DNA from: Limnomonas spitsbergensis | Lineage: Eukaryota > Chlorophyta > Chlorophyceae > Chlamydomonadales | Length of the DNA stretch: 64,000 nucleotides | Reading direction: 5' to 3' | NCBI GenBank assembly: GCA_037349105.1 | Contig: JAYJMM010000036.1 | Coordinates: 4,872,001-4,936,000 of the forward strand | In this document: one piece after another, positions 1 to 60,112 of the stretch | How positions within the stretch are numbered: position 1 is the stretch's first letter | How the letters are laid out: the number at the start of each line of letters is the position of its first letter | Made by a program: the position numbers and the translations under genes | The notes under the pieces: generated by a model | The model's database searches: none | The model's input: the letters and a program-made list of their open reading frames with translations, nothing else | What the model was told of the DNA's origin: nothing

Positions 1-1435
1 TTATCTCGGGTGTGGGGTAGGGCCTGCACCAGCAGACCAGCAGGCACAGCAGCATGAGGGCCATGCCATCTTCGGACAGGTTGTAAAGGGAGACCGAACA
101 CTTCACTGTTATCTCGGGTGTGGGATAGGGCCTGTACCGGCAGACCAGCAGGCACAGCAGCATGAGGGCCATGCCATCTTCGGACAGGGTGTAAAGGGAG
201 ACCGAACACTTCACTGTTATCTCGGGTGTGGGGTAGGGCCTGCACCGGCAGACCAGCAGGCACAGCAGCATGAGGGCCATGCCATCTTCGGACAGGTTGT
301 AAAGGGAGACAGAACACTTCACTGTTATCTCGGGTGTGGGGAAGGCCTGCACTGGCACCTGCCACTGCCCACAGTTGAAGGGCATTGCTACCTTCTGACA
401 TGGTGAGAGAGGGGACCAAACACTTTACCGTTGTCTTCAGAGGTGTTAGGCTGGGCCTGTGCCAGCAGAGATGCAGATGCCACAGCGTGAGGGCCAGGCC
501 AGCTTCGAGCAGGGTGTGAAAGGGGACCAAACACTGAACCGTAATATTTTGAGGTGTGGGACAGGGCCTGCATTGGCACAATCCACAACCTATAGTTTGA
601 GGGCATGGCCAGCTTCCAGCAGGGTGAGAGGCGCGACGGGGTGGTCAGTAAAATGCTTAGCCATCAGCTTTGATATTTGAAGGATGTGGGGTAAGGACTG
701 TACCAGCAGATGGATAGCTGAGGTCATATATAGCTTAACGTAGGTTGTGCAACAAGTTGGAATAGCTGAGGTCATATCCCGCACTAGGTAGGGTGTGCAG
801 CAAGATGGGGGTGATGTCTGCAAGGTCTGAATTCAACCCTAATATTGGGGGATGTGGGGTAGGTCCCGTTTTATCTTAGTGTAGCATGACCTAATCACGC
901 AGTCCTTGGGACAAAATGATTATATGATAATTTGTGTGCGGCAGAGGATGGTTTGCACTTGTTGTGCTATCAGCCCCTCTCTAATCTCTGACATGATTGC
1001 CTCTATCTCATCTGCTTAGGAAAGGGTTGCTGCTGATGTAGGAAGGGATTGCGGCCATTGCGCCCCCCCCCTCTTCTTCTTACATTTGGTTGCCCCTTGA
1101 TCCCCTGATCTGTCTGTGGGAGTCTTGAAAAACATTGGATAGCCAACACATCCTTGCCCCTCCCCTCATGTTCAAAAGGAGACGCTGCAACAACAATGGA
1201 ACAGGGGATTGCGAGCCTCTCCCACCTTATTCACATGATTTCCCCTCCCCCCGTTCTATTCTTCGAAAGCCTCCTTTGTTTGATTACCCCTACCCCCCTG
1301 CTCAGACAGAGATGTTGCCGATCGGACCGGGCATTGCCTCCCTCCCTCCTCGTCCACACGACTTCCCCTACCCCCTCTTCAGTAAGTGGGGGCCTTTGAA
1401 AACCTTCATTTGATTGTCCCTGCCCCCCTGTGCAG
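1..1435. repeat. Degenerating 108-bp tandem repeat and upstream intron of the helicase gene
   Basis: A 108-bp unit starts at 1, 109, 217 and 325 (near identical) and continues in decayed form near 432, 541 and 660. Each unit contains the phrase TTCGGACAG followed by G(T/G)TGTAAAGG, which could be an exon end plus donor, but no conserved helicase motif lies upstream, so this is only a possibility. From about 1070 to 1435 there are pyrimidine-rich acceptor-like blocks; two earlier copies, near 1150-1190 and 1270-1310, resemble the true acceptor plus exon start at 1436. I see no convincing exon in this stretch. Confidence 0.7.
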
Positions 1436-3629: not shown

Positions 3630-6600
3630 GTGAAGGGTGGCGAATGGGTGACATGAAGCTGGAGGGGCGGGCAAAAACTCAGGAGGGGGCTATATATGTG
3701 ACTCCTACCCAGTATGATATGTACCCTTCACCGCACTTGACTGTTGAAGCGACATAGTACCCATGGCCGAGCCTTTTCGCCCCAACCCGCACCTGTCGCG
3801 GGGGTGGGTATGGCAGGCGTTAGGCAGACTATACTACTCATCCTCATGAGCCCCTGGGTGATGCCTCCAACCTGCTGACCCCTGTCAGCATTCAGAGCAA
3901 GCCGCCGTTTGTAAAAACAAATAAATAAAGACTACTACTCCACCGGAGCAGGAGGCGTGAGAACCGCTCGACCCACAGCAGCTCCATCCAAGTTAGTAGG
4001 ATAGCCTGCTCACGACATCCGCCGTTTGTACTGCATGTGTTGCCTAGTCTTACAGAGGTGGGTGAGGCCGCGCTGTTCATCAGCCCTTGGAGGATGTCCC
4101 CCAGCCTGCTGTCACCTGACAGTATTTCATTTGTTGCCTTCTTGTGGCCAGGAACAGTTTGAAGCAAGCCACTAATTTGATGTTGTTCTATCTTACAGGG
4201 GTGGGCGAGGCCGAGCTGCCCATCCGCCCCTAGATGATGTCTCCAACCAGCTGTCACCTGACAGCATTTGATGCAAGCCACCGTTTGCACCGTATGTGTT
4301 GCTCTGTCTTACAGGGGTGGGTGAGGCCACGCTGTTCATCAGCCCTTGGAGGATGTCCCCCAGCCTGCTGCCAGCTGACAGTATTTGAAGCAAGCCACCA
4401 TTTGATGTTGCTCCTTCTTACAGGGGTGGGCGAGGCCGAGCTGCCCATCCGCCCCTAGATGACGTCTCCAACCAGCTGCCCACCGGAGGGGGTACTCAGC
4501 GGCTGGGTGAGGGTACCCAGCAGACGCAGGCGCGCCTGGCCATGCCCGTCCAGCTGAGCCTTTGGTGCATGAACCCTGCCGTCGCCATGCGGGAGCTGTC
4601 GCGCCCGGCACACACGGTGGGTGTCGCTGGCATCGCATGGGTGCCTGCTGTTGGCATGGCAGGGGGGCCTGCTGTTGGCATCGCAGGGGGGCCTGCTGTT
4701 CGCATCGCAGGGGGGCCTGCTGTTGGCATCGCAGGGGGGCCTGCTGTTGGCATCGCAGGGGGGCCTGCTGTTGGCATCGCAGGGGGGCCTGCTGTTGGCA
4801 TCGCAGGGGGGCCTGCTGTTGGCATCGCAGGGGGGCCTGCAGTTCGCATCGCAGGGGGGCCTGCTGTTGGCATCGCAGGGGGGCCTGCTGTTGGCATCGC
4901 AGGGGGGCCTGCAGTTCGCATCGCAGGGGGGCCTGCTGTTGGCATCGCAGGGGGGCCTGCTGTTCGCATGGCAGGGGGGCCTGCTGTTGGCATCGCAGGG
5001 GGGCCTGTCGCTGGCATCGCAGGGGGGCCTGCTGTTGGCATCGCAGGGGGGCCTGCCGCTAGCCCTGCAGGGCCAGCTGGGTAGTGAGCGATGCAGGCAG
5101 CAGCGCCTGATCTGCCGAATGAGGCGCTTGGGTAGATGCATAGAAGCTGTGATAGCTACTGAATACGTTATGGTAGCACAATCAGGCAAAACGGTATGCT
5201 GTATCATGTCATATCGTGCTGTATCGTGCTACCTAGGTAGCACAATCCGGCCCAACCTGTGCCCTGTCCTGCTACCTTGGAAATCGGATTACGCCCCGTG
5301 GCAGGGGCCAAGGGTGCCTCCCATTCGACGTGCTTCAGTCAAGCGACCCAAATGTCTGTCGGGCTCGGCCTGATAAACTGACACGACCATGATTGGAGTT
5401 TTGAGGTCTCGTTGGAATCCCTTTTCTGGCACACTTGGATGCATATAACCCCGTACTGCATTGATTTCTGAGACGCCGGGCTTTTTTGATCTGCATCCAT
5501 CCCAGATCCTGTGATGCCTCGATTGCTTACAGATCCTAGCCTGACATCTTAAAGATCCCAACCGTCCTGGATTCGAATCCATTGCCAGGTGATGCTGACC
5601 AGTGGGACGCTCTCGCCGCTGGAGTCGTTTGCCTCTGAGCTGGGCATCGAGTTCAAGGTCAAGCTGGAAGCGCCGCATGTGGTGGACATAGCCAAGCAGG
5701 TGGGACGCAGTGGGGTATTTCCTTTTCGTCCATTTTTGCTTTCTTTCCTCTGTCTGGGGTTTGGCTGGGGTTGTTTACCTTTTCACGGCTTGTCTGTTCA
5801 AGGTCTGGCAGCGCCGCATGTGGTGGACATGGCCAAGCAGGTGGGACGAAGGGGTCCCCTCGTCAAAGGCATGGCATGGCTGTACGCATGCAGTGCAACT
5901 GCTCACAAAGAGGTCTTGCAGCAGTTGATTTTCAAATTTGAACAGGCTGTCAGGGGGACTCGTAAGAAAGACAGAAAGAAAACTACGCCCCCCTAGGGGC
6001 GTGCGGGTTAAGGGAACAGCGCAGCTCGGGGACTCGTATAAATCCTCATCTATTACGACCCCTCTTGTCTGCCCCCTTACAGATCCAGCCTAATAGAAAG
6101 ACAGAAAGAAAGAAAAAGGATACTAGATGCTTCCACAATCCTTAAATTTGATTGAGGCAGCTTTCTGCCTCCCACTTTTGCTATCACCACAACCTTTGTG
6201 AATTGCGATAGGCCCCTCGCCGCCCCCCCCTCCCACTTTCGCCGCAACACTGCTTTTGCTGTAACAAGGACTTAAACGCGCATGTTGGGACGGGCCCTTG
6301 GCCGCCCACCTTTTGTTCAAAGCCTGTACAAGTAAGGTGCATGCTTCGGAATATTTTACCTCCCCTTTCAGGCCAAGCATGCCTCACGATGGCCTTTAGG
6401 ATAATGAGCCGTGTTTCTTTTTTTGTGACTCAGCTACATGTCAGCTACAGCCCAGCCACTGGCCGGAGGCCCTTATTGTGGCCAGCTATGCTGCTTTCGC
6501 CACCAGTCGTAGGCCGGTCCAGGTCTGGTCCTAATCGAGCCTTTAGCGGCCGCAGGGCGGCCTGCCAAAGCTGGCCTTGTAGCCAAAAACTGAAGCAGTA

Positions 6601-9600
6601 ATAATGAAGTGCCTGACTGATGTCAACGAGCAGTGGGGCCGAAGGACTGTACCTCCGCCTTTTGATGCAGCAGTCCACCGACTCCTTCTTGCCTCTTCTG
6701 ATCGCAAATGCCCTCCTTTTCCCCCTTCCAATCACCCTCTGAGCCCCCCCCCCTCCACACACACACTTCTTCCCCTTTCAGTTGAAACTGCTGCGTGCTG
6801 GAGAGAGTTCCGGCTGCTGACACTATTGCAAATGCCCTCCTTTTCCCCCTTCCAATCATCCTCTGAGCCCCCCCCCCTCCACACACACACTTCTTCCCCT
6901 TTCAGTTGAAACTGCTGCGTGCTGGAGAGAGTTCCGGCTGCTGACACTATTGCAAATGCCCTCCTTTTCCCCCTTCCAATCATCCTCTGAGCCCCCCCCC
7001 TCCACACACACACTTCTTCCACTTTCAGTTGAAACTGCTGCGTGCTGGAGAGAGTTCTGGCTGCTGACACTATTGCAAATGCCCTCCTTTTCCCCCTTCC
7101 AATCATCCTCTGAGCCCCCCCCCCTCCACACACACACTTCTTCCCCTTTCAGTTGAAACTGCTGCGTGCTGGAGTGAGTTCCGGCTGCTGACACTATTGC
7201 AAATGCCCTCCTTTTCCCCCTTCCAATCATCCTCTGAGCCCCCCCCCCTCCACACACACACTTCTTCCCCTTTCAGTTGAAATTGCTGCGTGCTGGAGCG
7301 AGTTCCGGCTGCTGACACTATTGCAAATGCCCTCCTTTTCCCCCTTCCAATCATCCTCTGAGCCCCCTCCCCTCCACACACACACTTCTTCCCCTTTCAG
7401 TTGAAACTGCTGCGTGCTGGAGCGAGTTCCGGCTGCTGACACTATTGCAAATGCCCTCCTTTTCCCCCATCCGATCATCCTCTGAGCCCCCCCCCCTCCA
7501 CACACACACTTCTTCCCCTTTCAGTTGAAACTGCTGCGTGCTGGAGCGAGTTCCGGCTGCTGACACTATTGCAAATGCCCTCCTTTTCCCCCTTCCAATC
7601 ATCCTCTGAGCCCCCCCCCTCCACACATACACTTCTTCCCCTTTCAGTTGAAACTGCTGCGTGCTGGAGCGAGTTCCGGCTGCTGACACTATTGCAAATA
7701 CCCTCCTTTTCCCCCTTCCAATCATCCTCTGAGCCCCCCCCCCTCCACACACACACTTCTTCCCCTTTCAGTTGAAACTGCTGCGTGCTGGAGCGAGTTC
7801 CGGCTGCTGACACTATTGCAAATGCCCTCCATTTACCCCCTCCAATCATCCTCTGAGCCCCCCCCCCTCCATACACACACTTCTTCCCCTTTCAGTTGAA
7901 ACTGCTGCGTGCTGGAGAGAGTACCGGCTCCTGACACGATCGCAAATGCCCGCCTTTTCCCCCTTCCAATCATCCTCTGAGCCCCCCCCCCTCCACACAC
8001 ACACTTCTTCCCCTTTCAGTTGAAACTGCTGCGTGCTGGAGAGAGTTCCGGCTGCTGACACTATTGCAAATGCCCTCCTTTTCCCCCTTCCAATCATCCT
8101 CTGAGCCCCCCCCCCTCCACACACACACTTCTTCCCCTTTCAGTTGAAACTGCTGCGTGCTGGAGCGAGTTCCGGCTGCTGACACTATTGCAAATGCCCT
8201 CCTTTTACCCCTTCCAATCATCCTCTGAGCCCCCTCCCCTCCACACACACACTTCTTCCCCTTTCAGTTGAAACTGCTGCGTGCTGGAGCGAGTTCCGGC
8301 TGCTGACACTATTGCAAATGCCCTCCTTTTCCCCCATCCGATCATCCTCTGAGCCCCCCCCCCTCCACACACACACTTCTTCCCCTTTCAGTTGAAACTG
8401 CTGCGTGCTGGAGCGAGTTCCGGCTGCTGACACTATTGCAAATGCCCTCCTTTTCCCCCTTCCAATCATCCTCTGAGCCCCCCCCCTCCACACATACACT
8501 TCTTCCACTTTCAGTTGAAACTGCTGCGTGCTGGAGCGAGTTCCGGCTGCTGACACTATTGCAAATACCCTCTTTTTCCCCCTTCCAATCATCCTCTGAG
8601 CCCCCCCCCCTCCACACACACACTTCTTCCCCTTTCAGTTGAAACTGCTGCGTGCTGGAGCGAGTTCCGGCTGCTGACACTATTGCAAATGCCCTCCTTT
8701 TACCCCCTCCAATCATCCTCTGAGCCCCCCCCCCTCCATACACACACTTCTTCCCCTTTCAGTTGAAACTGCTGCGTGCTGGAGAGAGTACCGGCTCCTG
8801 ACACGATCGCAAATGCCCGCCTTTTCCCCCTTCCAATCATCCTCTGAGCCCCCCCCCCTCCAAGCACACACTCTACCACTCATGCAGGTGTGGACTGGCG
8901 TGCTCCCTCATGGCCCGGAAGGCTCCCTGTTGAATGGAACGTACAAGTCGGTCTCCACCCTGGCCTACCAGGTAGGAGGTGGGTCGGGGCACTCCTGTCA
9001 AGATGAAATGAGCGTCCATGCAACCAGCCTGGCCTACCAGGTAGGAAGTGAGCTGAGGCGCTCCTGTCAAGATAAAATGGGCGTCCATGCAACCAGCCAG
9101 GCCTACCAGGTAGGAAGTGAGCTGAGGCGCTCCTGTCAAGATAAAAATGAGCGTCCATGCAACCAGCCTGGCCTACCAGGTAGGAAGTGAGCTGAGGCGC
9201 TCCTGTCAAGATAGAAATGGGCGTCCATGCAACCAGCCTGGCCTACCAGGTAGGAAGTGAGCTGAGGCACTCCTGTCAAGATAAAAATGGGCGTCCATGC
9301 AACCAGCCTGGCCTACCAGGTAGGAAGTGAGCTGAGGCGCTCCTGTCAAGATAAAATGGGCGTCCATGCAACCAGTCTGGCCTACCAGGTAGGAAGTGGG
9401 TCGGGGCACTCCTGTCAAGATAAAAATGAGCGTCCATGCAACCAGCCTGGCCTACCAGGTAGGAAGTGAGCTGAGGCGCTCCTGTCAAGATAAAAATGAG
9501 CGTCCATGCAACCAGCCAGGCCTACCAGGTAGGAAGTGAGCTGAGGCACTCCTGTCAAGATAGAAATGAGCGTCCATGCAACCAGCCAGGCCTACCAGGT

Positions 9601-12600
9601 AGGAAGTGAGCTGAGGCGCTCCTGTCAAGATAAAAATGGGCGTCCATGCAACCAGCCAGGCCTACCAGGTAGGAAGTGAGCTGAGGCACTCCTGTCAAGA
9701 TAAAAATGGGCGTCCATGCAACCAGCCTGGCCTACCAGGTAGGAAGTGAGCTGAGGCGCTCCTGTCAAGATAAAATGGGCGTCCATGCAACCAGCCAGGC
9801 CTACCAGGTAGGAAGTGAGCTGAGGCGCTCCTGTCAAGATAAAAATGGGCGTCCATGCAACCAGCCTGGCCTACCAGGTAGGAAGTGAGCTGAGGCGCTC
9901 CTGTCAAGATAAAAATGGGCGTCCATGCAACCAGCCAGGCCTACCAGGTAGGAAGTGAGCTGAGGCGCTCCTGTCAAGATAAAAATGGGCGTCCATGCAA
10001 CCAGCCAGGCCTACCAGGTAGGAAGTGAGCTGAGGCGCTCCTGTCAAGATAAAAATGGGCGTCCATGCAACCAGCCAGGCCTACCAGGTAGGAAGTGAGC
10101 TGAGGCGCTCACCTATCTAGTTCGAAAATTATGTATCCACCCAACCAACCTGGCCCACCGGGTAGGTAAGGGGTTCGGACGCGGACCTGTCAAAAGGACA
10201 AAAATGTATCCACCCTGGCCTACTAGGCAGGAGGTGGGTTGGGGCGCACAACTATCAGGTTCAAAACGAGTAAGCATCCACCCTGGCTTACGGGCTTGCA
10301 TTTCTGTGGCACCATGGGTCAGTCCTTGCTGGAGTGCTGCATGTCTGCAATCCACATGTTCTATGATGCCCTTTTGTATCATGCATTCATACCTACCATG
10401 TGCTGCTGCTGCTGCATGGACAGGATGCCATGGGCCAGTCCGTGCTGGAGTGCTGTCGGGCCATCCCAGACGGGGTGCTGCTGTTTGTGTCGAGCTACAG
10501 CCTGATAGACACGCTCAGCACGAGGTGGAAGGTGAGGGTTGCATGGAACATGGAGATGGGGACATACACGGGTACACAGGGTTCAGGCATTCCAGGGTTA
10601 TATACTTACATGAAATACTGGTCAGGGATGGAGGGAGAGGGTCATCTGAACGGGTGGAAGGAGAGGGGTGGAAGGAGAGGGTCATCTGAAGGGGTGGAAG
10701 GTTAGGGGTGGAAGGAGAGGGGTGGAAGGAGAGGGGTGGAGGGAGAGGGTCATCTGAAAGGGTGGAAGGAGAGGGGTGGAAGGAGAGGGGTGGAGGGAGA
10801 GGGTCATCTGAAAGGGTGGAAGGAGAGGGGTGGAAGGAGAGGGGTGGAGGGAGAGGTTCATCTGAAAGGGTGGAAGGAGAGGGGTGGAAGGAGAGGGGTG
10901 GAAGGAGAGGGTCATCTGAAGGGGTGGAAGGAGAGGGTCGTCTGAAGGGGTGGAAGGAGAGGGTCATCTGAAGGGGTGGAAGGAGAGGGGTGGAGGGAGA
11001 GGGTCATCTGAAGGGGTAAAATGAGAGGGTCATCTGAAGGGGTGGAAGGAGAGGCGGGATACAACACTGGAACCGAGGTGGCAGGTGAGAGTCATCTGAA
11101 ATATGGGTCAGGCATAGAAGGTGAGGGTAGATGCAACACTGCCACGCTGGGCAGGAGGGCAGGGGAAATGCTGGTGTCCCAGGCATGAGGTGGAAGGTGG
11201 GGCAGCAACGGTAGCATCAGCAGGCATTCCAGGAGACAGGTCAGCTTGGATGGTAAGGTCTGCATCAGGGTTCGGGGTTCTTTAGGCATGAGCTTGCTGG
11301 TGCACACCGGAAGAGAAAACGGAGGGACGTGTTTCATTCAAGAATGTGTGAGCTGAAGGAAGCATGCCTGTGGTGCCTGCAGGTCACTGGGCTGTGGGAT
11401 CAGCTGCAGGCTGTCAAAGAGGTGGTTACGGAGCCGCGGGAGAGTGGCAAGGCGTTTGAGGCGGTCTTGGCCAAGTACATGGGGGCGGTACAGGCGCGCA
11501 TGGGGGCGCTGCTGATCGCAGTGTGCAGGGGAAAGGTCAGTCAGAACTCACGAATCCATTCCTCACTGTTTTTACCTATGACTCATCACTCCCCGATATG
11601 TGTGGAACAAAGTGGCTGCATTCCACATTTTCCGGTTGTGTCTCTTTCTGCGTCCACATCTCATCACTCCCTGATCGGTGTGGAACATCATCACTGCCTT
11701 CCACACTTTTCAGCCGTCACTCTCTCTGCCCATAACTCATCACTCCCCAATTGGTGTGGACCACTGCCAATGCCTTCCACATACTCAGCCGTCTCACTTT
11801 CTGTGCCCATAACTTATCGCTCCCCAATAGGTACTCGGTATGGGACACCGTCACTGCCCTCCACACTTTCCAGCCGTCCCTTTCCCTGCCCATACCTCAT
11901 CACTGTCCACCCAATGTTGAACTCCCTCACTGCCCTCCACCGATTCCGACCCTCCCTTTTTCCTCGCTTCAGGCATCAGAGGGTATTGACTTTGCCGACG
12001 AGTATGCCCGCGGGGTCCTCCTAGCCAGCATCCCCTACCCTTCAGTCAAGGACACTAAGGCAGGTCCTTCAGGCGGGTCCTTCAGGCGGGTCCTTCAGGC
12101 GGGTCCTTCAGGCGGGTCCTTCAGGCGGGTCCTTCAGGCGGGTCCTTCAGGCGGGTCCTTCAGGCGGGTACTTCAGGCGGGTACTTCAGGCGGGTACTTC
12201 AGGCGGGTACTTCAGGCGGGTACTTCAGGCGGGTACTTCAGGCGGGTACTTCAGGCGGGTACTTCAGGCGGGTACTTCAGGCGGGTACTTCAGGCGGGTC
12301 CTTCAGGCGGGTCCTTCAGGCAGGTCCTTCAGGCGGGTACTTCAGGCGGGTCCTTCAGGCAGGTACTTCTGGCGGGTACTTCAGGTGGGTCCTTCAGGCG
12401 GGTACTTCAGGCGGGTCCTTCAGGCGGGTCCTTCAGGCGGGTCCTTCAGGCGGGTCCTTCAGGCGGGTCCTTCAGGCGGGTACTTCAGGCGGGTCCTTCA
12501 GGCGGGTCCTTCAGGCGGGTCCTTCAGGCGGGTACTTCTGGCGGGTACTTCAGGCGGGTCCTTCAGGCGGGTCCTTCAGGCGGGTCCTTCAGGCGGGTCC

Positions 12601-21670: not shown

Positions 21671-21764
21671 CCCAAGGCATGCCATACCCTTGTCTCGCCC
21701 AGCCACAAGTCAATCAACGACTCAAATGAAGGCATCCAGAAATCAATCACCAGCACTACGTCTC

Positions 21765-21904
21765 GCACTCACCAGTACTACGTATTGCACTCACTAGCGC
21801 TACACCCAGCACTCACCAGCACTACGCCTCTCACTCACCAGCACTACACCCAGCACTCACCAGCACAACGCCTCTCACTCACCAGCACTACACCCAGCAC
21901 TCAC
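21765..21904 (-). repeat. 20-bp repeat of an exon end and donor, about seven copies
   Basis: On the minus strand the true exon end GTGCTG|GTGAGT (21905/21904) is followed by about seven copies, spaced about 20 bp, of (T/A)GTGCTGGTGAGTG. Intervening bases alternate between GAGAGGCGT and GCTGGGTGT. Almost every copy keeps a near-perfect donor. Confidence 0.93.
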
Positions 21905-26080: not shown

Positions 26081-26084
26081 AGTA

Positions 26085-28042: not shown

Positions 28043-28084
28043 TCCTTGTCCCGTATCCGGCGTCTGAAGCTCCAAAAGATGGCG

Positions 28085-48000: not shown

Positions 48001-51000
48001 AGGCAAAACGTGCTACTGTGTGTGGACCTTGACCATGAGGCAAAAACGTGTTACTGTGTGTGGACCTTGACCATGAGGCAAAACGTGTTACTGTGTGTGG
48101 ACCTTGACCATGAGGGCAAGAACGTGCTACTGTGTGTGGACCTTGACCATGAGGCAAAACGTGTTACTGTGTGTGGACCTTGACCATGAGGCAAAAACGT
48201 GTTACTGGGTGTGGACCTTGACCATGAGGCAAAACGTGTTACTGTGTGTGGACCTTGACCATGAGGCAAAACGTGCTACTGTGTGTGGACCTTGACCATG
48301 AGGCAAAACGTGCTACTGTGTGTGGACCTTGACCATGAGGCAAAACGTGTTACTGTGTGTGGACCTTGGACCATGAGGCAAAACGTGTTACTGTGTGTGG
48401 ACCTTGACCATGAGGCAAAACGTGTTACTGTGTGTGGACCTTGACCATGAGGCAAAACGTGCTACTGTGTGTGGACCTTGACCATGAGGCAAAACGTGCT
48501 ACTGTGTGTGGACCTTGAACCATGAGGCAAAACGTGCTACTGTGTGTGGACCTTGACCATGAGGCAAAGACGTGTTACTGTGTGTGGACCTTGACCATGA
48601 GGCAAAACGTGCTACTGTGTGTGGACCTTGACCATGAGGCAAAACGTGTTACTGTGTGTGGACCTTGACCATGAGGCAAAACGTGTTACTGTGTGTGGAC
48701 CTTGACCATGAGGCAAAACGTGTCTACTGTGTGTGGACCTTGACCATGAGGCAAACGTGTTACTGTGTGTGGACCCTTTCGACCATGAGGCAAAACGTGC
48801 TACTGTGTGTGGACCTTGACCATGAGGCCAAAACGTGCTACTGTGTGTGGAGCCTTGACCATGGGCAAAACGTGTTACTGTGTGTGGACCTTGACCATGA
48901 GGCAAAACGTGTTACTGTGTGTGGACCTTGACCATGAGGCAAAACGTGCTACTGTGTGTGGACCTTGACCATGAGGCAAAAACGTGTTTACTGTGTGTGG
49001 ACCTTGACCATGAGGCCAAAACGTGTTACTGTGTGTGGACCTTGACCATGAGGCAAAACGTGCTACTGTGTGTGGACCTTGACCAGTGAGGCAAAACGTA
49101 GTTTACTGTGTGTGGGACCTTGACCATGAGGCAAAGACGTGCTACTGTGTGTGGTACCTGGACCCATGAGGCCAAGACGTGTATACTGTGTGTGGGACCT
49201 TGACCATGAGGCAAAACGTGTTACTGTGTGTGGACCTTGGACCCTGAGGCAAAACGTGCTACTGTGTGGGACCTTGACCATGAGGCAAAACGTGGCTACT
49301 GTGTGTGACCTGACCATGAGGCAAAACGTGTTACTGTTGTGTGGACCTTGACCATGAGGCAAACGTGCTACTGTGTGTGGACCTGGACCATGAGGCAAAA
49401 CGTGTTTACGTGGGTGTGGACCTTGACCATGAGGCAAGACGTGTTACTGTGTGTGGGTGGACCTTGAACCATGAGGCAAAGACGTGTTACTGTGTTGGTA
49501 GGACCTTGACCATGAGGCAAAACGTGGATTACTGTGTGTGGACCTTGACCATGAGGCAAAACGTGCTACTGTGTGTGGCACCTTGACCATGAGGCAAAAC
49601 GTGCTACTGTTTGTGGACCTTGACAGAGGCAAAACGTGTTTACTGTGTGTGGACCTTGACCATGAGCACGTTTGTGTGTGGACCTTGACCATGAGCAAAA
49701 CGTGTTACTGTGCTGTTGGACCTTGGACCATGAGGCAACAACGTAGTTACTGTGTGTGGACCTGACCATGAGGCAAAACGTGTTACTGTGTGTGGACCTT
49801 GACCATGAGGCCAAAACGTGTTACTGTGTGTGGACCTTGACCATGAGGCAAAACGTGACTGACCATGAGCAAACGTGCTACTGTGTGGGACCTTGACCAT
49901 GAGGCAAAACGTGCTACTGTGTGTGGACCTTGACCATGAGGCAAAACGTGTTACTGTGTGTGGACCTTGACCATGAGGCAAAACGTGCTACTGTGTGTGG
50001 ACCTTGACCATGAGGCAAAACGTGCTACTGTGTGTGGACCTTGACCATGAGGCAAAACGTGCTACTGTGTGTGGACCTTGACCATGAGGCAAAACGTGCT
50101 ACTGTGTGTGGACCTTGACCATGAGGCAAAACGTGTTACTGTGTGTGGACCTTGACCATGAGGCAAAAAGAAAGGGAGCTGCCTCCTGCAGGCAGGGGCG
50201 TGTGAGGGTTAACGAAGCTGTGCAGAGTGGATCAGCTAGGTGGGCAGAGGGTGATACTTGGTGTGGATCAGCTAGGTGGGCAGAGGGTGATACTTGGTGT
50301 GGATCAGCTAGGTGGGCAGAGGGTGATACTTGGTGTGGATCAGGGCTGAGTGGCGGAAAGAAAGAAAGCTGCCCTTTGCAACCAGGTGGGCAGCACATGC
50401 CACTGGGTGTTATTATTGACACTGTCTGGCCCTCATAAAAGTTCTTTTAGGGGGTGATGCCAGGGTGATGTGACAGCAAGATCCAGGTGTGGACCAGGGC
50501 AGTGTGGATACACTCCACAATGGTGATTGTGATTAAAACGAAACAAAAAATCGTGTTGCCTAGTTTAGAAGAGAACGAGGTATATACATCCTTAACTCTT
50601 CACCCTAAAATCTGAACCCCAAATCATTAGTCCTGATTACTGTCACGCTTGCAGGAAATGGATTTGAAAGCAGCTGGGATCCAGAGTCCAGCTGCCACCA
50701 TCCATCTACAACCTTTGCTAGTACCGGTTTTGATATTATCATACTGCTGTACTCCTTTCCACAGGAGTAGGGCTCAAAAGGAGCATGGATCCAGAGTCCA
50801 GCTGCCACCATCCATCTACAACCTTTGCTAGTACCGGTTTTGATATTATCATACTGCTGTACTCCCTTCCACAGGAGTAGGGCTCAAAAGGAGCATGGAT
50901 CCAGAGGCCAGCTGCCACCATCCATCTACAACCTTTGCTAGTACCGGTTTTGATATTATCATACTGCTGTACTCCCTTCCACAGGAGTAGGGCTCAAAAG

Positions 51001-53460
51001 GAGCATGGATCCAGAGGCCAGCTGCCACCATCCATTCACAACCTTCACCCATATTGATATTATATTATCATACCGGTATTCCCTCCCTCTCTCAGGGGTA
51101 GGGCTCGAAATCAGCCTGAATCCAGAGGCCAGCTGGCACTACCCATCCACACCACAGGAGCTGTCCAGGTTCATTGTGTTCTGCAGCCTGCATAAAAAAG
51201 GGTGAGCCAGGGGGGGGAAACGAGGACCTGCATGCAAAATGAAGGGCAGGAGAGCAGGGCCAGGGGAAAGAAACTGTAACTTACTTTTATGGGAAATGGC
51301 TGAGGTAGGGAGGTCAAGTGGATATAAATGCATGAGCCAGCGGAATGCCGAGAGACCGGGGATGTGCTGTTGGTATAAAGTCTGCTCAGAGCATCATGTG
51401 GCCTCATTGATGAGATGTTTGGATTTTGAATTTGGATTTGAAACGTGTCAGGTACACCTTGTCTGGAGGTGCGAAGTTTGGTGCGGACCTACTGGCCTAC
51501 CCTGGGGACCCGGCTGAGTTCCATGCACAATTCACGGTGAGCCCTGTAATGGGAATCCTGAATTCAATTGAGGTGAAGGTGAAGGTTAAAATAAAATATC
51601 TGGGAAATCACCGGGGCAAGGTAGGGGAGCCTCCTCTGAACTGCTTGTACCCTAAAAACTTGCTTTCCTCCAGCCGTTGCTGTGGCTTCAGCAGCTGGAA
51701 GAGGCTTTTTTGATTTCTTCGCGTGTAGTAACCAAGCGCATTGCAAGGGAGCTGAAGGAGGGCCACCCACCCACCAAAATGGCAGTTGTAGGGATTAGGG
51801 AAGCGCGTGCGTGGGCCTGAACAGGGGAGCCCTGTCATATGTCGATATGTGTGGACGAATGGTAGAGAGGGGGCTCATTTCAGGAATAGGAGAATGCCTC
51901 CTCCTAATGAAGAGGAAGCAGTCTCCTGGTGTATGTCTGGTATTCCTGGGAAGATACAGAGCCTGGCCTAGCCGATCTCCCTTCTCAAGGCTCTTTAAAG
52001 CGCACCCATATATGTTTACGTCCAGGTTTAATAGCGTACCTAGGGAGATAGTGCCATGGGACACGTGCATGCACAAAAACATATTGGACGGCAAGGCTCG
52101 TTGCCCACGGACTCATACTACTCAAGCGGCAGGGAGTGTCAAGGGCTTTGCGTGTCTTGGCTTGTGATTTAGGGTTCAGGGTTAATGCAACTCCCTGGTA
52201 ATGCCTGCTGATACAGACTTCTGCCGAACTCCCTGTTTTCTGCTCATATAGACGTGTGACTGGCTTCCTGCCTCTCTCTTCCTGTTCTTATTCAATATGC
52301 TGGCATCATGCAATGGATGACGAACCTTATGGCTGGGTGGATTGTGTAGGTTCGGCCCATCACCCGAGGCACTCCTCTCAACCCCATTCTGCTCAAGTCG
52401 GCATCCAGGTATGAATGCATTAAGTCTGGCGGGTGGTGTCACTCGCTTTTCAACACCGTCTGTGGTACTTGTTTCGTAGTATTTCAATCACATGATGCCA
52501 GTACCGTATTGAACTATGCAACCGTCCATTTTTTCCTCAGAGCATGCATGCGGCTCATCAGATGGGCTGACTGGAATCATTTCTCTTCCCCATCACTCGA
52601 CACCCAGGTCTGCAGCATCACCCCTGCTGCCAGCGTACACTGCCCTGCGTACACTGCCCTGCGTACACTGCCCTGCGTACACCCCACTGATACATTCACT
52701 GGAGGCCTACATTTTAGATGGGCTGCCCTAAGAGGGGCTGCCTTTCCTTTGCCTTACAATTTAGGGTTTCCTGAACTAAACCCTAAATCCTTAATTACGG
52801 GCTGCCTTTCCCTTGCCTTTAGATGGCCTGTCTAGAGGGGCTGCCTTAAGAGGATCTGCCTTTCCTTTATCCTTTCTCAGAAGGGCTTTTCCCTCTGTCT
52901 TGTTTTCTCTCTCCCACTCAGTTTCCTCTAAGACTGTTGGATGCCCACATGGCCAACCTTTGCTTGAGCAGTGTCCAGAGGTGTAATTCATTAACTGGAG
53001 ATCGGGATCTTAGGACTTCCTTTCCTTTTGGGGGTGGCCTTCTCCTTCACCTGTTGCCTCTGGTTTTTCTCCTCCTCTTCTGAATGTCAAATGAATTACA
53101 CCGCTGGGCCATGCTGAAAAGGCTCTTCCCTTATTTTCTAGCCATAAGTTAATTGTCTTCCCGACCAGACAGTTGGGCGCCCACGCGGCCGAGCGTCTTT
53201 TCAGCAGGGCCCTGAGGTGTAACGTCATTGACTGAAGATCCGGTAACTGAAGCTGTGTTTGATGCACCAGGGGATCTCACACAGCCAGGAAGCACCTGCT
53301 GCTGGCTACGGTCCCTGCCCTGGATGAAGCCGCGGAGGGGAAGCTGCAGGGCCGGAGAGCGGGATGCAGGTTGCAGGAATGGCTGGAAGCGGTGGTGGGG
53401 GCAGGTGGCAGCGTGGCATACCTATCCTTTGGCCCAGAAACTGGGTTTGGAGGCAAATAG
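33040..53460 (+). CDS. SEN34: tRNA-splicing endonuclease subunit SEN34
   Basis: Eleven exons whose phases all match: 33040-33112, 33379-33438, 34610-34687, 35333-35565, 36557-36637, 38319-38603, 39250-39595, 51096-51201, 51452-51536, 52350-52408, 53271-53460; 531 residues. The N-terminus reads GYVWRADDVIRLRRDHRIYG then INGLPLELSADETSLLV, as in SEN34 N-terminal domains. The C-terminus has FIVFCSLHKKG, GGAKFGADLLAYPGDPAEFH and TARKHLLLATV. The catalytic Tyr (in YPGDP), His (eight residues later) and Lys (in ARKHLLL) are all present, so the subunit should cut the 3' splice site of pre-tRNAs in the nucleus. The middle is unusual: about 250 residues with a duplicated block, S(D)RxYYAYYEA-VGxYAE...LPMLE, and Gln/Ala-rich spacers. 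Intron 7 (39596-51095) is 11.5 kb of satellite DNA. The start is the first ATG in frame with the exon 1 motif. Confidence 0.9.
33972..34165 (+). mobile_element. Dispersed element of about 180 bp, copy 5
   Basis: Plus orientation. It runs from TTTTTTGGCTACAAGGCC through GGACCAAACCTGGACCGTCC to GTAGCTGACATGTAGCTGAG. It lies in SEN34 intron 2, which otherwise shows only unique sequence. Confidence 0.7.
34845..34935. repeat. Interstitial telomere-like (CCCTGAA)n
   Basis: CCCTGAA is repeated about eight times, followed by CCCTCAA variants, in SEN34 intron 3; looser copies extend upstream to about 34690. It is one base from the plant-type telomere unit CCCTAAA. True CCCTAAAC-like words occur nearby at 35850-35875 and 36165-36178. 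Confidence 0.85.
35566..35730 (+). repeat. Copies of the exon end plus donor of SEN34 exon 4
   Basis: The true end GCGTACTACGAGGCG|GTGAGTTAC (35565/35566) is followed at roughly 50-bp spacing by diverged copies: GTACAAGTAGGTGGTGAGTC, GTACTAGGAGGCGCTGAGGC and GTGCTAGGAAGCGGTGCC. The first keeps a usable GTGAGT. All three run on in frame, so intron retention would extend the protein by about 55 residues. Confidence 0.75.
37840..38318 (+). repeat. Acceptor-plus-exon-start copies before SEN34 exon 6
   Basis: The true acceptor GCAAGCAG|GCGCTGCATCACC (38318/38319) is preceded by copies ending CACCTGCCAGCAG|GTGCGGCATCATC (about 37896), CACCTGCCAGCAG|GCGCTGCATCATC (about 37999) and CACCTGCCAACAG|TTGCTGCATCATC (about 38120). 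Spacing is about 100-200 bp and each has its own pyrimidine tract. Confidence 0.9.
39667..39757. repeat. Left flanking direct repeat of the 37-bp array (AGAAAGAAAG family)
   Basis: AGAAAGAAAGGAAGCTGCC, CTCCTGCAGCCAGGGGC and GTGAGGGTTAA are found again just past the array at 50167-50215 and partly at 50357-50395. Related phrases occur at 5965-6020 and 36420-36480, so this is also a dispersed repeat. Confidence 0.8.
39756..50168. repeat. 37-bp satellite array, about 281 copies, inside SEN34 intron 7
   Basis: The unit contains GGCAAAACGTG(T/C)TACTG then TGTGTGGACCTTGACCATGA. The main variable base is GTGTTAC/GTGCTAC. Rare variants (CAAGACGTGCAACTG at about 40459 and 40829) recur 370 bp apart, showing a ten-unit higher-order duplication. 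From about 39756 to 44240 units are nearly perfect; from about 44240 onward single-base insertions and deletions become frequent, worst at 46970-47610 and 49080-49870. There are no unique spacers, so this is not CRISPR-like. All reading frames here are artefacts. Confidence 0.98.
50162..50400. repeat. Right flanking direct repeat and 36-bp tandem repeat
   Basis: The left-flank sequence recurs immediately after the last 37-bp unit. A 36-bp unit (GTGGATCAGCTAGGTGGG then CAGAGGGTGATACTTG) is then repeated three and a half times (50227-50345), and a third AGAAAGAAAGCTGCC copy follows. Confidence 0.85.
50640..51095 (+). repeat. About 115-bp copies of the acceptor and exon start before SEN34 exon 8
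   Basis: Three nearly identical units (TTCCACAG|GAGTAGGGCTCAAAAG, CAGAG(G/T)CCAGCTGCCACC), with acceptors near 50763, 50873 and 50983, and a partial one near 50652, precede the true exon start CTCTCTCAG|GGGTAGGGCTCGAAAT at 51096. Each has its own TACTCCC(T/C)TTCC pyrimidine tract. If used, copies would add about 20 codons with altered frames. Confidence 0.93.
52625..52685. repeat. Short repeat CCCTGCGTACACTG, four copies
   Basis: A 14-bp unit repeated about four times in the last SEN34 intron. Confidence 0.9.
52935..53235 (+). mobile_element. SINE-like fragments with a CACGCGGCCGAG core
   Basis: Two fragments (about 52938-52990 and 53172-53235) share GGGCGCCCACGCGGCCGAG and AGCAGGGCCCTGAGGTGTAA-type phrases, including a GTCATTGACTG end. 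Further copies are at 26826-26877 (minus strand), 63044-63105, 63517-63572 and 63600-63662. They lie in the last SEN34 intron; the second ends about 35 bp before the last acceptor. Confidence 0.7.
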
Positions 53461-53639
53461 AGTCCTCCTTCCCACATATTGTGTTTACTACAAAGTCTGC
53501 AGGACTCCAGGTCTTTTGAGTGGATCGTTGGGAGGTTGCTTAATGGAACTTGAGGGACCAGCAGTAGAGGGCGGAAGGTTTGCATATCGTGATTGTGAAA
53601 TTCAATTGATTGGCCTGTTCACAAATTTGAACTTTGCCA

Positions 53640-54330: not shown

Positions 54331-55505
54331 GGAGCCATGTCTCATACCAGGGCCCCATACAATACGCATGCCACATGCCCGCATTGTTCAAGGCATGGCT
54401 TGCTTGGTGGAGTTGGGCTGACAGTGCACGTACTTCATAAGCGTGGATCAGTAGCTCCGTCCTGGCCAGCAGGAGAAGACTGTAGACAACAGGTGAGGGC
54501 GATTAGGGTGCACAGATCGGGTTTCTGAGCCGTACTAGCAGCCTTGTAAGCCCCCTCCCAGATCTACCACGAGAACGCAACACCTGCTATATTGTTACGA
54601 CTTGGCCTTCGTGCGGAAGATATATGGCACCAATTGTACAAGGAATGGCGTTGAATCTGCTGCTGTTCCTTGCCCTCTTCGGCGTGGCCTTCTCTCAATC
54701 TCACAACTCGACGAGAGATACGAGCTTTATGGAGACGATAGATGAGGACGCTCGGATTTTCGTCTGGCACCATTTTCTGTCTGACGGTGGGTGGTAGGTA
54801 CCCGGCTACAGCACAGCTGCAGCGCCTTGGAATGTTGCCAAGTCGAAAAAACAGCCATGGTGTCGCTGCTCCCGAAAGGGCTTGTCACTAAGCATTTAAA
54901 TGGACTACTCTCAGATTGAAAAGGGCTACTCATGAGTGTTCAACTGGGGGGGGTGAGTTGCTGTGGCAGCTCTTACATTTGCCCGACATGGACAGTGCAT
55001 GGGGCCCCGACTGGCCCCCCTGAAGGAAGTGCAACAGGCTGATGCTTTGCTCTGTCAATGGGCTGACAGAGCAAACGAACAGCCTCTTGGGCAGAAGAGC
55101 ACTATGTGGCAAGCTAGTGTAAATACATTTACATAGCAGTGTCGCATAGCCGTCCCTGTGTCATCAGCTTTACACGCTGAGACAGTAGCACGACCACTCC
55201 GATGAGCCCTTGGGCTGCCCCTTCAAATTAAATTACTACACCCACAGGGCGCAGACCTGAGCGTTGCTTGAAAGAGGAATGGAGTATCCCATTTGTCGGC
55301 CACCCTTGGCTACCCTTGGCTACCCTTGGCTACCCTTGGCTACCCTTGGCTACCCTTGGCTACCCTTGGCTACCCTTGGCTACCCTTGGCTACCCTTGGC
55401 TACCCTTGGCTACCCTTGGCTACCCTTGGCTACCCTTGGCTTAAACGGGAAGAAATTATGATCACTGATGGGAAGAAACACCGTCTACCTCTGTTTTTTC
55501 TATAG
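54331..55505. other. Region between the LINE remnant and prolyl hydroxylase exons
   Basis: No recognisable exon was found. An N-terminal exon of the prolyl 4-hydroxylase may lie here but I could not identify it. The tract 55305-55441 is a simple repeat (listed separately). Confidence 0.4.
55305..55441. repeat. 10-bp repeat TACCCTTGGC, about 14 perfect copies
   Basis: A perfect decamer array about 65 bp upstream of the first identified prolyl hydroxylase exon. Perfect copies indicate recent expansion. It gives two overlapping reading frames with a 10-residue period that are not genes. Confidence 0.97.
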
Positions 55506-58500
55506 CTGCTATGCTTGCACATGTTCCCTAGCCAAGAATTCCACATTTTGCCTGATTGGCTGCGGTGTGCGCCTCCCTGCGGCACAGATGAATGTGATTA
55601 CATCCGGAACAAGGCAGAGAAACGGCTGGCGAGATCAGGAGTCGTTGGTGAGTACGTACCATCCATTCTGGTGCCATCCATCCTCACACCCATCCAAGGA
55701 TGGGAGGGCAGGTTGTGTCTACCTCCCATCAAAGACAGTACTCCTGTATATGTAGGCATCGGTGATGTGATATGATATTATATAGTATATAATTGTATAT
55801 GCCCGTGACCTGTATTGCTGCCGATATTCTGGGTGACATATTACATCAAGACCGTCCCTGATCGACCGTGCCGACAATGTCTTACCGACTTACCCTCTGG
55901 ATCTGGACATGCAATCAAATCATTCTGATGCCATGAACAAAACCAGACGCGATCGGCTGACCCCATGGACTGACCCCATGAACAGACCCCATGGACTGAC
56001 CCCATGGACTGACCCCATGGACTGACCCCATGGACTGACCCCATCAGCTGACCCCATCAGCTGACCCCATGGACTGACCCCATGAACTGACCCCATGGAC
56101 TGACCCCATCAGCTGACCCCATCAGCTGACCCCATCAGCTGACCCCATGGACTGACCCCATGGACTGACCCCATGGACTGACCCCATGGATTGACCCCAT
56201 GAACTGCCCCCATGGACTGACCCCATGAACTGACCCCATGGACTGACCCCATGGACTGACCCTATCAGCTGACCCCATGGACTGACCCCATGAACTGACC
56301 ACATGGACTGACCCCATGGACTAACCCCATGGACTGACCCCATGAACTGACCCCATGGACTGACCACATGGACTGACCCCATCAGCTGACCCCACGGACT
56401 GACCCCATGGACTGACCCCATGGACTGACCCCATGAACTGACCCCATGGACTGACCACATGGACTGACCCCATCAGCTGACCCCATGGACTGACCCCATC
56501 AGCTGACCACATGGACTGACCACATGGACTGACCACATGGACTGACCACATGGACTGACCACATGGACTGACCCCATGGACTGACCCCATCAGGTGAACC
56601 CATGAACTGACCACATGGACTGACCCCATGGACTGACCCCATGGACTGACCCCATCAGCTGCCCCCATGGACTAACCACATGGACTGACCACATGGACTG
56701 ACCCATGGACTACCCCCATGGACTGATCCCATGGACTGATCCCATGGACTGATCCCATGGACTGACCACATGGACTGACCACATGGACTGACCCCATGGA
56801 GGCATGGACTGATCCCATGGACTGACCCCATGGACTGACCCCATGGACTGACCCCATGGAGGCATGGACTGACCCCATGGACTGACCCCATGGAGGCATG
56901 GACTGACCCCATAAACTGACCCCTGATCGGTGCCATATCCTTGGCCGGACTCCCTCAGATACGGGCAATGGTGGTAGTCAGGTGTCGGACATCAGGACGT
57001 CGGACGGCATGTTTTTCGCACGGGCCGAGGACCAGGTCATAGAAAGTAAGATGGGTCAGTTTGACCGGGGGACAGGTTTGAATCTATGGGGGACTAGGGG
57101 AATTCGCGATGCATGCCTGGCTACGTTACGAAAGATTGAGCCGAGGCTCGCATTTGACAAGACCTGCTAACCTTGCTTACTCGTCTTTTCCGGCCGGGAG
57201 GATCAGGTCATAGAAAGAATCAGGGTTTTAACCAGTCAGGATACAGGATTCGCCAGGGCCTTAACCCTTTAGCCCTTTCACCCTGAAGTGCTTAAGCCCT
57301 TCAACCCTTTAATCATTCAGGAATGGCCAGGGCTTCACCCCATGGTCTGATCATTATGGTGCATATTGGCAAAATATTTCCTAAACTAGCAGCTCCTTCA
57401 ACAGGCGAACAACTGATCCATCAGAGTCAGTCAGGAACTTTCATTTTCCCGTGCATGTTTCTGGTGAACCTGCATGTAGCAGATCTTCATAAGCTCGTTG
57501 CACGATCGCCGACCCAAGCAGAGGGCTGCCTCAACCCCATCCTGAACCTCGCCTCCTGCTGCAGCTATTGAGCGGAGGCTAGCTGAGTGGACCCTGACCC
57601 CGGTACATAGTGGAGAGGGGCTGCAGGTGCTCCGGTACCGCAAGGATCAGAAGTACGACGCGGTGAGAGTGACGACGCGGGCTTGGGGTTTAGGGTCCCC
57701 CCCCCCCAACCATAAATAAATAAGGGGTTTAGGATGAGTTGGGGTCGCAATGCTAGTTTTTGTGTCAGTCGGGTGGTAACGGCCCGGATGCAGCCCTGGC
57801 GCCAAGCTGAGCTGTTCTCATATTGCCACAACTTGCAAGCCTTTTTGTGGCGCAATAACCACCGCTGAGATCTTGAGTGCTTATTTATGTTGTAGTCGTA
57901 TGTTGTCAGGAAGCTCATTAACCGGATGACATGAACCGGATGGCATTACCCGGATGGCCGAGATGATTTGCAACTTCTGCTGATTCCCTAATGGTGATGC
58001 TGATTCTCTAATGCTGATCCTGATTCTCTGGTGCTGATTCTGTTAAATGTGTGATTATGTGATGCTGGTCCTGATTCTCTGATGATGATGCTGGTCCTGA
58101 TTCTCCGATGATGATGCTGGTCCTGATTCTCCGATGATGAGGCTGGTCCTGATTCTCTGATGCTGATTCTCTGATGCTGATACTGATGCTGATGCTGGTC
58201 TTGATTCTCTGATGCTGATTCCCTGATCCTGATGTAATTCTCTGATGCTGATCATGGTGCAGCACTGGGACTTTTTCTTTGACGAGGTCAACGTCAAGAA
58301 CGGTGGCAACCGCTTCGCAACTGTGCTCTTGTACTTGGCAGCAGCTGATGACGGCGGGGAAACGGTGAGCAGAATGGGTCCCTTGGATCCTGTTGTAGGA
58401 TTCAAGGGATCCACAACAGCAACCTCTCCGCAACATTTAACCCCCAGGAGTCTGCCTAGGGGGTAAATGTTGCGGAGAGGGTGCTGTTGTGGGTCCCTTG

Positions 58501-60112
58501 GATCCTACAACAGGACGTTCTTTTACTTTGAAGTTCAATTCCAGTGCAAAAAACTGACATGCCCGCTGAAGGGGTTTCCTGCCGATGATGTATTGCTGCT
58601 TTGGTACCGGCGTCCGATGTTTCATGCCCAAATGGGAGGCATCCTCATTTTTTGCCCCGCTCATGGAATATTGATGTCTTTAAAAATGGCTGCGAGGCAA
58701 ATTTGACTACCCTCAGGTCTTCCCCAAGGTTCCTGCCCCCAACGGCATCAACCCTCTCTTCTCAGACTGCGCAAAATACAGCCTGGCGGTGAAGCCCAAG
58801 AAAGGAGATGCTATTCTGTTCCACAGGTACGTCTTGGCCCGGAAAGGGGATGCTTTTCTGTTCCACAAGTACCTCCCAAAGCCCCCAAAGGGGGACACCA
58901 TGATGTTCCTCGGGGAAACTGAGCCCCGCTTCATGTTTTCAATGAATATATGTCAATATATGTATTTAACCTGCTACCGGTACACGCTTGCAATGAATAT
59001 TTATTTATATGCCTCTGCAGGGCCTTTTATCAGATCCTTATCACTTTATCTGCCATCCAGGCACCATCAACCTATTTTGCGCCCTAAGACCTTTGCTGCC
59101 CCCCCCTTTTGCTGCCCCCCCCCCCCTTTTGTGCCTTGACGCCTTTGCTGCCCCCCCTTCCCATCATCGCATGAATGCCACTGGGCAAGACTGGATTGAA
59201 TTCAGGCAGCACCTACACCCTCCTCCCATTCCAAAACCCGGTTCCTGCCCCCCGGTGTTCTCGTTACAGCATGAACGCAACCGGGCACCTGGAGGAACGG
59301 TCGATGCACGGGGCCTGCCCAGTGCTCAAGGGAGAAAAGTGGTCCATGACCAAGTGGTAAGTGGCCTTTGACAAATTGGCTAGCCCGGCCACTGGCTTGA
59401 AGCTCGTGATCAGCCCAGCACCTGACTGGCCGATAAGTGTTCCTCCATAGTCCACACTCCATAGTCTCCACACCAGCGTAGGGGCAGTCTCTGATCGTTG
59501 GGTCATGCAGGCCCACGCTGGGTGTCTCGTAATTATTTTTAAGCTGCGACACCAGATCCTGTGCCTTCTAGCACACATTGGATGCTGACTGTCTCAAAGA
59601 GAGACACTGCACACCCCTCGCTGACCTGACATACTTGGGACCCTTGAATAGGAACTCGTAAGCATTTGATCAAATGGCTCTACGCTAGTGAGTGGTTGCG
59701 TTCAAGTCTGAACCCTCCATGGTCAACCCTTAACCCTCAATGGTCAACCCTTTACCCTCAATGGTCAACCCTTAACACGCAATGGTCAACCCTTGACCCT
59801 CAATGGTCAGCCCTTGACCCTCAATGATCAACCCTTGACCTTCACTGATCAACCCTCAACACGCAATGGTCAACCCTTGACCCTCAATGGTCAACCCTTA
59901 ACATGCAATGGTCAACCCTTGACCCGAACCCTAAGCCATCAGCTGCTTCCCGCTGCCTTCCCTTCAGGATCCACGGCGCCCATTACGACATGGGAGGTGA
60001 CAAGTACGACAACCAACACAAGCAATACAAGAAGCTGCTGGAGGATCACAAAGCGGGTGTCCATCATGGTGGGTACGAGAACATTCTTGCACGCTTGCAA
60101 GATCACACTTGA
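55506..60112 (+). CDS. Prolyl 4-hydroxylase (2-oxoglutarate/Fe(II) dioxygenase)
   Basis: Exons 55506-55647, 56959-57045, 57565-57662, 58263-58364, 58717-58826, 59270-59356, 59968-60112 join in frame to 256 residues. The product hydroxylates peptidyl proline in the secretory pathway, as in plant and algal cell-wall glycoprotein synthesis. Motifs in order: DECDYIRNKAEKRLARSGVV; DIRTSDGMFFARAEDQV; IERRLAEWT..GEGLQVLRY; HWDFFFDEVN with the iron-binding HxD; NRFATVLLYL and GGET|VFPK; LAVKPKKGDAILFHS; MHGACPVLKGEKWSMTKW with the distal His and the 2-oxoglutarate-binding Lys. The last exon (ending at 60112) has no family match beyond KWIHGAHYDMGGD and may be misjoined. The usual N-terminal membrane anchor was not found, so the 5' end is incomplete. 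The first exon could instead start at the GCACAG acceptor 95 bp later. Confidence 0.9.
55962..56925. repeat. 13-bp minisatellite (ACTGACCCCATGG), about 74 copies
   Basis: The unit ACTGACCCCATGG has interspersed variants CATCAGCT, CATGAACT and CCACATGG. It fills the prolyl hydroxylase intron 55648-56958. A period of 13 bp gives false minus-strand frames with a 13-residue period (GSVHGVSPWGQ). Near 56800-56910 a GGAGGC insertion appears in several units, indicating local higher-order copying. Confidence 0.97.
57965..58255. repeat. Degenerate TGCTGATTCTCTGA repeats in a prolyl hydroxylase intron
   Basis: Units of 12 to about 30 bp built from GATGCTGATTCTCTGA and GGTCCTGATTCTC(C/T)GATG run up to the acceptor GGTGCAG at 58262. 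The repeat is loosely ordered. Confidence 0.85.
58389..58514. repeat. Foldback (inverted repeat) with arms of about 56 bp just after an exon
   Basis: Left arm 58389-58445 and right arm 58458-58514 are reverse complements with only a few mismatches, around a 12-base spacer. It begins about 25 bp after the donor ACG|GTGAGC (58364/58365). It may be a foldback transposon or an inverted duplication. Confidence 0.9.
58827..58930 (+). repeat. Two copies of the end of prolyl hydroxylase exon 58717-58826
   Basis: The exon end AAGCCCAAGAAAGGAGATGC, ATTCTGTTCCACAG|GTAC is followed by GCCCGGAAAGGGGATGC, TTTTCTGTTCCACAAGTAC (to about 58872) and CCCCCAAAGGGGGACACC, ATGATGTTCCTC (to about 58912). The first copy keeps a donor-like AAGTACC. 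Confidence 0.85.
59165..59200 (+). repeat. Copy of the start of prolyl hydroxylase exon 59270-59356
   Basis: GCATGAATGCCACTGGGCA matches the true exon start CATGAACGCAACCGGGCA, about 100 bp upstream of it. It lies in the upstream intron, which also has long C-rich tracts (59098-59155). Confidence 0.75.
59705..59935. repeat. About 20-bp repeat (CAATGGTCAACCCTT), about 11 copies
   Basis: Alternating units CAATGGTCAACCCTTGACCC and CAATGGTCAACCCTTAACA(C/T)G run up to the pyrimidine tract of the last prolyl hydroxylase acceptor at 59967. Confidence 0.93.

Follow-up and report, generated by a model that had tools for sequence, protein, structure and literature searches.

Spare copies of exon ends and splice sites in the introns of the green alga Limnomonas spitsbergensis

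The stretch of DNA described here is 64,000 nucleotides in length and lies at positions 4,872,001 to 4,936,000 of contig JAYJMM010000036.1 (assembly GCA_037349105.1) of the green alga Limnomonas spitsbergensis. It is referred to below as the window. The window carries several intron-bearing genes in which exon ends, including their splice sites, have spare copies in the neighbouring intron. The same was found for many exon ends outside the window, in a sample of stretches from the same genome. An earlier note on this DNA had reported such copies in at least five genes of the window and had suggested that splice junctions attract copying.

The RTEL1-like helicase gene is on the forward strand at 4424-19113 and has nine exons (4424-4616, 5589-5699, 8888-8971, 10424-10531, 11383-11535, 11973-12059, 14137-14247, 15581-15700, and 16228-19113). 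Its joins are frame-continuous from 5589 onward, and the piece from 5589 to the early part of the 16228 exon matches the Pfam domain Helicase_C_2 (E 3.6e-49). Exon 4424-4616 is predicted by the gene finder, and we take it to resemble human RTEL1. For the exons at 1436 and 4424, the model draws only on open reading frames, gene-finder output, and presumed similarity. The prolyl 4-hydroxylase-like gene is also on the forward strand, at 54645-60112, and has eight exons (54645-54786, 55588-55647, 56959-57045, 57565-57662, 58263-58364, 58717-58826, 59270-59356, and 59968-60112) that join in frame and match 2OG-FeII_Oxy_3 (E 6e-18). These two gene models, the helicase from 5589 onward and the prolyl 4-hydroxylase, can be regarded as firm on the basis of frame and domain match. 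The labels given earlier to the remaining genes fared unevenly. SEN34 is backed by a match to tRNA_int_endo (E 1e-11), Mini-RNase III is backed in part by Ribonuclease_3 (E 3.5e-7, residues 32-55 of the joined piece only), and the protein labelled LYR has no Pfam match.

Exon boundaries were probed with 36 exon and 14 intron bases against their own intron, up to 1.5 kilobases (kb). The null was formed by about 200 equal-length stretches of other introns, which places a floor of about 0.005 on p. A copy was defined as junction-spanning when it held at least 8 exon and at least 3 intron bases. At all 14 boundaries named in the earlier note, the copy in the adjacent intron outscores every null draw (p about 0.005), and the claim that exon-intron junctions recur in introns is therefore upheld. 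The further claim that the copies carry exon bases together with the splice site stands for 11 of the 14, which span the junction (1436, 4424, 5699, 8971, 12059, 14247, 30640, 35565, 38319, 51096, and 58826). It does not stand for 10424, where the acceptor is absent, 59270, where the AG is lost, or 21905, where only 4 exon bases are included. Across the 41 window junctions probed, a copy was found at 16. Three of the 25 other junctions (57565, 57662, and 36557) gave p values of 0.02 to 0.045 with matches that do not span the junction.

The copies differ in length, spacing, and number, and are on the forward strand unless stated. Upstream of acceptors, a diverged copy of the 1436 acceptor is at 1293-1321 with a Smith-Waterman (SW) score of 28 against a null maximum of 21, the exon itself being an open frame only. 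A 44-base-pair (bp) identical copy of the acceptor and exon start of 4424 is at 4191-4234. The copy belonging to 10424 (10312-10339) aligns with exon bases +4 to +32. On the reverse strand, the acceptor and exon start of 30640 have a spaced copy at 30752-30798, at an offset of 154. Two acceptors are repeated in arrays: a 121-bp array of about 2.8 copies at 37828-38146 contains copies of the 38319 acceptor, and a 110-bp array of 4.3 copies at 50677-51151 contains the acceptor and exon start of the SEN34 exon at 51096. The copy of the 59270 exon start (59169-59187) is diverged and only just above the null (SW 23, null maximum 22).

On the donor side, the exon end and donor of 5699 have a spaced copy at 5805-5854, with about 63 bp copied and a spacer of 82 bp. 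The exon end and donor of 8971 are included in a 70-bp array at 8955-10110 with about 16.6 copies. The exon end and donor of 10531 are copied at 11183-11202, a match new to the earlier note whose SW score of 30 is below the null maximum of 31 (p about 0.010). The donor at 12059, judged by frame, belongs to a GC-AG intron, and a 13-bp array of about 112 copies begins immediately after it (12058-13512); few exon bases are present in this unit. An array with a unit of about 235 bp at 14208-15044 includes the exon end and donor of 14247, and the gene finder reads its copies as 21-nucleotide (nt) micro-exons. The Mini-RNase III-like donor at 21905 lies in a 22/44-bp array on the reverse strand (21743-21910). 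The exon end of 35565 is copied at 35645-35667 with loss of the GT. In the prolyl 4-hydroxylase-like gene, the exon end of 57045 is copied at 57192-57215 (SW 36, null maximum 21), extending 1 base past the junction and also new to the earlier note, and the exon end and donor of 58826 are copied at 58842-58875 at an offset of 42.

Other repeats are present in the same genes. A 124-bp array at 6704-8872 in the RTEL1-like gene gave no junction-derived match (acceptor 8888, SW 15, p about 0.95); its unit has matches of 74-87% identity on the minus strand of contig C92 at 973618-974064. In the SEN34-like gene, a 37-bp minisatellite of about 270 copies covers 10.1 kb (39756-49857), apparently within one intron. 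The exon pairs 35456-36637 and 38319-39590 of this gene encode similar protein when compared by eye (YAYYEAVGGYAE... and YAYYEAVGAYAE...), which suggests that a larger local duplication took in a pair of exons. An intron of the prolyl hydroxylase gene contains a 128-bp palindrome, about 90% matched, at 58388-58515.

The genome is 260 megabases (Mb) in 124 contigs. The analysis beyond the window used 21 stretches of 10 kb (210 kb), taken at fixed positions on contigs longer than 0.5 Mb. Junctions came mostly from a gene finder written for the purpose, applied to this one genome, which produced 39 gene models and 127 introns. Ten introns were excluded by length (below 120 or above 9000), leaving 117 in use. 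Of the 28 curated junctions in the two firm genes, the finder recovers 26 (it predicts 30), a rate that lacks independence because the same 28 junctions seeded the splice-site model. An initial setting gave too many micro-exons. When the splice-site model was retrained on its own output, recall dropped from 26/28 to 23/28 and further micro-exons appeared; that version was not used for counts. When 10 predicted proteins were checked against Pfam (2 from the window and 8 from sampled loci), 8 matched, including that of L007 only below the curated cut-off; the L003 and L015 proteins had no match.

Junctions of the window and sample were screened against 1 kb at a score of 26, with edges of short or weak exons excluded, which left 96 donors and 91 acceptors. 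Junction-spanning copies were found at 17 of the donors and 13 of the acceptors, while the same probes placed on other introns gave 0.23% and 0.00%, respectively. The exclusions and wrong neighbouring exons removed some named boundaries from this screen (for example 14247, 51096, and 58826), and these were tested directly with the boundary probe. In the sampled loci alone, a copy is present at 12 of 73 donors and 8 of 69 acceptors, and junction copies are denser in the window than there. They occur in 8 of the 16 intron-bearing sampled loci, which bears out the earlier view that the copying is systematic and independent of the gene.

The copies share the properties of local direct duplication: they have the same orientation as the original and lie no more than a few hundred bases from it. 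The array at 39700-50200 was masked in the whole-sequence analyses, and the satellite stretches L006 and L013 were excluded from the strand count, the diagonal scan, and the counts of two-copy events and arrays. L006 (1-10000) is 36% GC and consists entirely of local repeats, other stretches being 49-61% GC; it is possibly a satellite block. The diagonal scan found 3843 direct segments in the real sequence and 0 in shuffled sequence. A peak in BLAST offsets near 100 bp was discarded, as the diagonal scan shows a broad spread instead; blastn suppresses near diagonals. Inverted local copies are fewer, with 138 alignments within 1 kb compared with 1075 direct, and many of the 138 are self-palindromic. 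Duplicates are not restricted to junctions or to introns and are common outside annotated introns too: they cover 34.5% of intron bases and 34.2% of other bases, the latter including the satellites L006 and L013.

Of 155 families, 83 are tandem (spacer of 10 or less). Among the 62 single-pair families, 51 have a spacer above 20, and in the 45 spacer-bearing single-pair families tested the flanks are on average unrelated (identity 0.55, the same as shuffled), as is typical of local insertions with a spacer. Exact tandem slippage therefore does not seem to account for all copies, and the idea of a wholly tandem origin was dropped. Two junction-derived units were searched in the genome, a search in which common words can be missed. 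The 5699 unit has two places, both in its own intron, and the 8971 unit has 17 matches including the original, all within window positions 8930-10245. This confinement speaks against a mobile element; neither unit lies at many unrelated places, as an introner would. The 124-bp array unit, with its one further place on contig C92, is an exception; it is not known to derive from a junction.

Whether junctions are preferred was addressed with a paired comparison, in which each junction was set against random points of the same intron with equal search lengths. Introns of at least 350 bp were used (78 on the donor side and 73 on the acceptor side). Donors recur at a rate of 0.218 and interior points at 0.260 (difference -0.042, 95% interval -0.136 to 0.051); acceptors recur at 0.163 and interior points at 0.271 (difference -0.108, 95% interval -0.221 to 0.012). 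The sampled loci alone gave 0.207 and 0.248 for donors, and 0.132 and 0.245 for acceptors. Because false junctions could dilute an excess, the comparison was repeated in 36 introns of curated or Pfam-supported genes, and no hidden junction excess was seen in them. Donors in this set gave 0.400 and interior points 0.407 (30 introns; a wide 95% interval of -0.190 to 0.178), and acceptors gave 0.133 and interior points 0.410 (30 introns; also wide, -0.453 to -0.082). In the same small set, copies are commoner at donors (12/30) than at acceptors (4/31).

Along the sequence, the donor itself has a recurrence rate of 0.187, and points inside the intron have rates of 0.15-0.42. Into the exon, the donor-side rate falls to 0.071 at 25 bp, 0.039 at 50 bp, 0.017 at 75 bp (1/60), and 0.000 at 100 bp (0/49), with 1 of 28 at 150 bp. 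This decay fits duplications of some tens to about a hundred bases that overlap the exon edge. The claim that splice junctions attract copying fails on these rates, since junction points recur no more than interior points of matched introns. In the sampled loci and the window, junction sequence is no commoner than other local duplicates, an outcome the earlier note had itself named as refuting its proposal. Splice junctions are thus not supported as the target of copying, and the junction copies are a subset of pervasive local duplications, those overlapping an exon edge.

The reading favoured here, with a probability of about 0.78, is that pervasive short-range direct duplication produces junction copies by chance overlap and that the original site is still used. 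It builds on direct observation of the copies, their spread through the genome, and the lack of a per-position preference for junctions. Short stretches of DNA would be constantly duplicated in direct orientation over a short distance, in introns and outside annotated genes. Some duplicates would grow into tandem arrays, and others would remain as two copies with an unrelated spacer. A stretch that by chance includes an exon edge would carry an extra exon end, splice site included, into the intron. Such an insertion would be tolerated through continued use of the original, which is the first donor or the last acceptor, and the copy would afterwards drift or expand like other intron repeats. 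The copies may be made by template switching or by break repair from local templates, and exon definition may let splicing ignore them.

Several observations weigh against this reading. Most junctions come from the gene finder and not from complementary DNA (cDNA), and some are false: the window hits of the 1-kb screen include 513, in an unsupported exon, and 17907, which falls within the last exon of the curated helicase model. Local duplicates also cover part of the exon bases (17.6%), a figure that includes repetitive protein and probably some false exons. Introns are denser than other noncoding DNA both in two-copy events (0.47 and 0.34 per kb) and in arrays (0.65 and 0.34 per kb). With uniform neutral placement of the 92 two-copy events, 67 are noncoding where 75.3 are expected, 8 straddle an exon edge where 3.6 are expected, and 9 have a source wholly in an exon where 5.1 are expected; another 8, with exon on both sides, are outside the expectation model. 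After 6 arrays running through exons were set aside, 21 of 98 usable arrays touch an exon edge where 15.1 are expected. Slower decay of the conserved exon copy was tested as the cause and found no support, as the exon and intron parts are equally similar (0.909 and 0.906). The result is a mild, unexplained excess of events, 1.4- to 2.2-fold, at exon edges and in exons.

The straddling events and edge-touching arrays would suit an unlikely alternative, that splice junctions or exon edges generally are true duplication hot spots, for example through breaks or R-loops. In two green algae, tandem repeats are reported to be enriched close to intron-exon junctions (PMC3887541), which points in the same direction. 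The per-position rates at junctions are not raised, however, and the similar excess of exon-only sources indicates that nothing in the event-level excess singles out junctions. The processes suggested in the earlier note, transcription-coupled repair or R-loops at splice sites, are not needed where local duplicates are common outside annotated introns too. The AGGT model mentioned with them is less likely still. Under that model, the copies would be scars of recent intron gain by tandem duplication, the intron lying between two copies. The model is established in single cases (PMC4974935), but at a score of at least 22 none of 78 introns has a repeat common to its donor and acceptor regions (null 1.3%), and the copies sit inside introns and not at the opposite splice site. 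An origin by intron gain is accordingly very improbable here.

The earlier note had also said that the copies pose a problem of splice choice, and this is borne out by the sites they retain. Of 30 decoy copies, 26 retain the GT or AG, and 19 have a site score within 1 unit of the original. If these were functional alternative splice sites or micro-exons under selection, such retention would be expected, and the gene finder does predict exons from the 21-nt copies at 14386-14406 and from others. Retention is just slightly above that at copied interior points, 113 of 144 of which preserve the corresponding two bases; for decoys and interior controls alike, the way copies are detected favours those with the site retained. 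The decoys keep their sites about as well as neutral copies do, which gives no sign of purging. Use of a decoy is predicted to introduce a stop in 23 of 28 cases and a frameshift in 3 more, so that a functional role for the copies is quite improbable.

Splicing apparently ignores the near-perfect copies, probably by exon definition. The median internal exon is 134.5 bp and the median intron 605 bp, values that fit exon definition, under which splicing would use the donor closest to the upstream exon and the acceptor closest to the downstream one. Frames and Pfam continuity in the two firm genes also fit use of the first donor and last acceptor. Volvox and Chlamydomonas have shorter introns, and for them a proposal of intron definition has been made (PMC4378016); under it, the inner copies should win. 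A stronger version of these ideas can be put forward tentatively, with the odds somewhat against it: about one splice boundary in six or seven would have near-perfect, un-purged intron copies that the spliceosome ignores, by exon definition and not intron definition, with duplications maybe mildly favoured at exon edges.

Similar duplications are known elsewhere. Non-tandem local duplications were reportedly found among natural rice insertions by Vaughn and Bennetzen in 2014; nearby DNA is copied a short distance there as it is here, and the rice cases are recent polymorphisms. A genome-wide load of decoy junctions is named in no title among the matches listed for earlier reports and mechanisms. 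In Chlamydomonas and Volvox, tandem repeats are densest in introns and commoner near intron-exon junctions (PMC3887541). Those algae and Limnomonas are alike in being green algae with their top repeat density in introns and more toward intron ends. The two studies differ in that repeat motifs were counted there and an excess was found near junctions, whereas no per-position excess is seen here; that units hold exon ends or splice sites is observed here and is not stated in the part of that paper available. In the potato RdRp gene, an intron was gained through a tandem duplication crossing an intron-exon boundary (PMC4974935). Both cases duplicate across such a boundary, but a new intron arose in potato, while existing introns gain copies here. 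Small tandem duplications arise in mouse cells from repair of breaks with overhangs (PMC8355091). Short direct duplications are common to both systems; in Limnomonas some copies are in addition set apart by unrelated spacers, and the mechanism is an inferred one.

A junction-aimed process, as originally posed, lacks per-position support. Local duplication alone can scatter ready-made exon ends in introns, where they may serve as raw material for new exons, and the scattered copies are a trap for gene annotation. If the decoys are indeed ignored, they would provide many natural tests of how the spliceosome chooses between near-identical sites at known distances.

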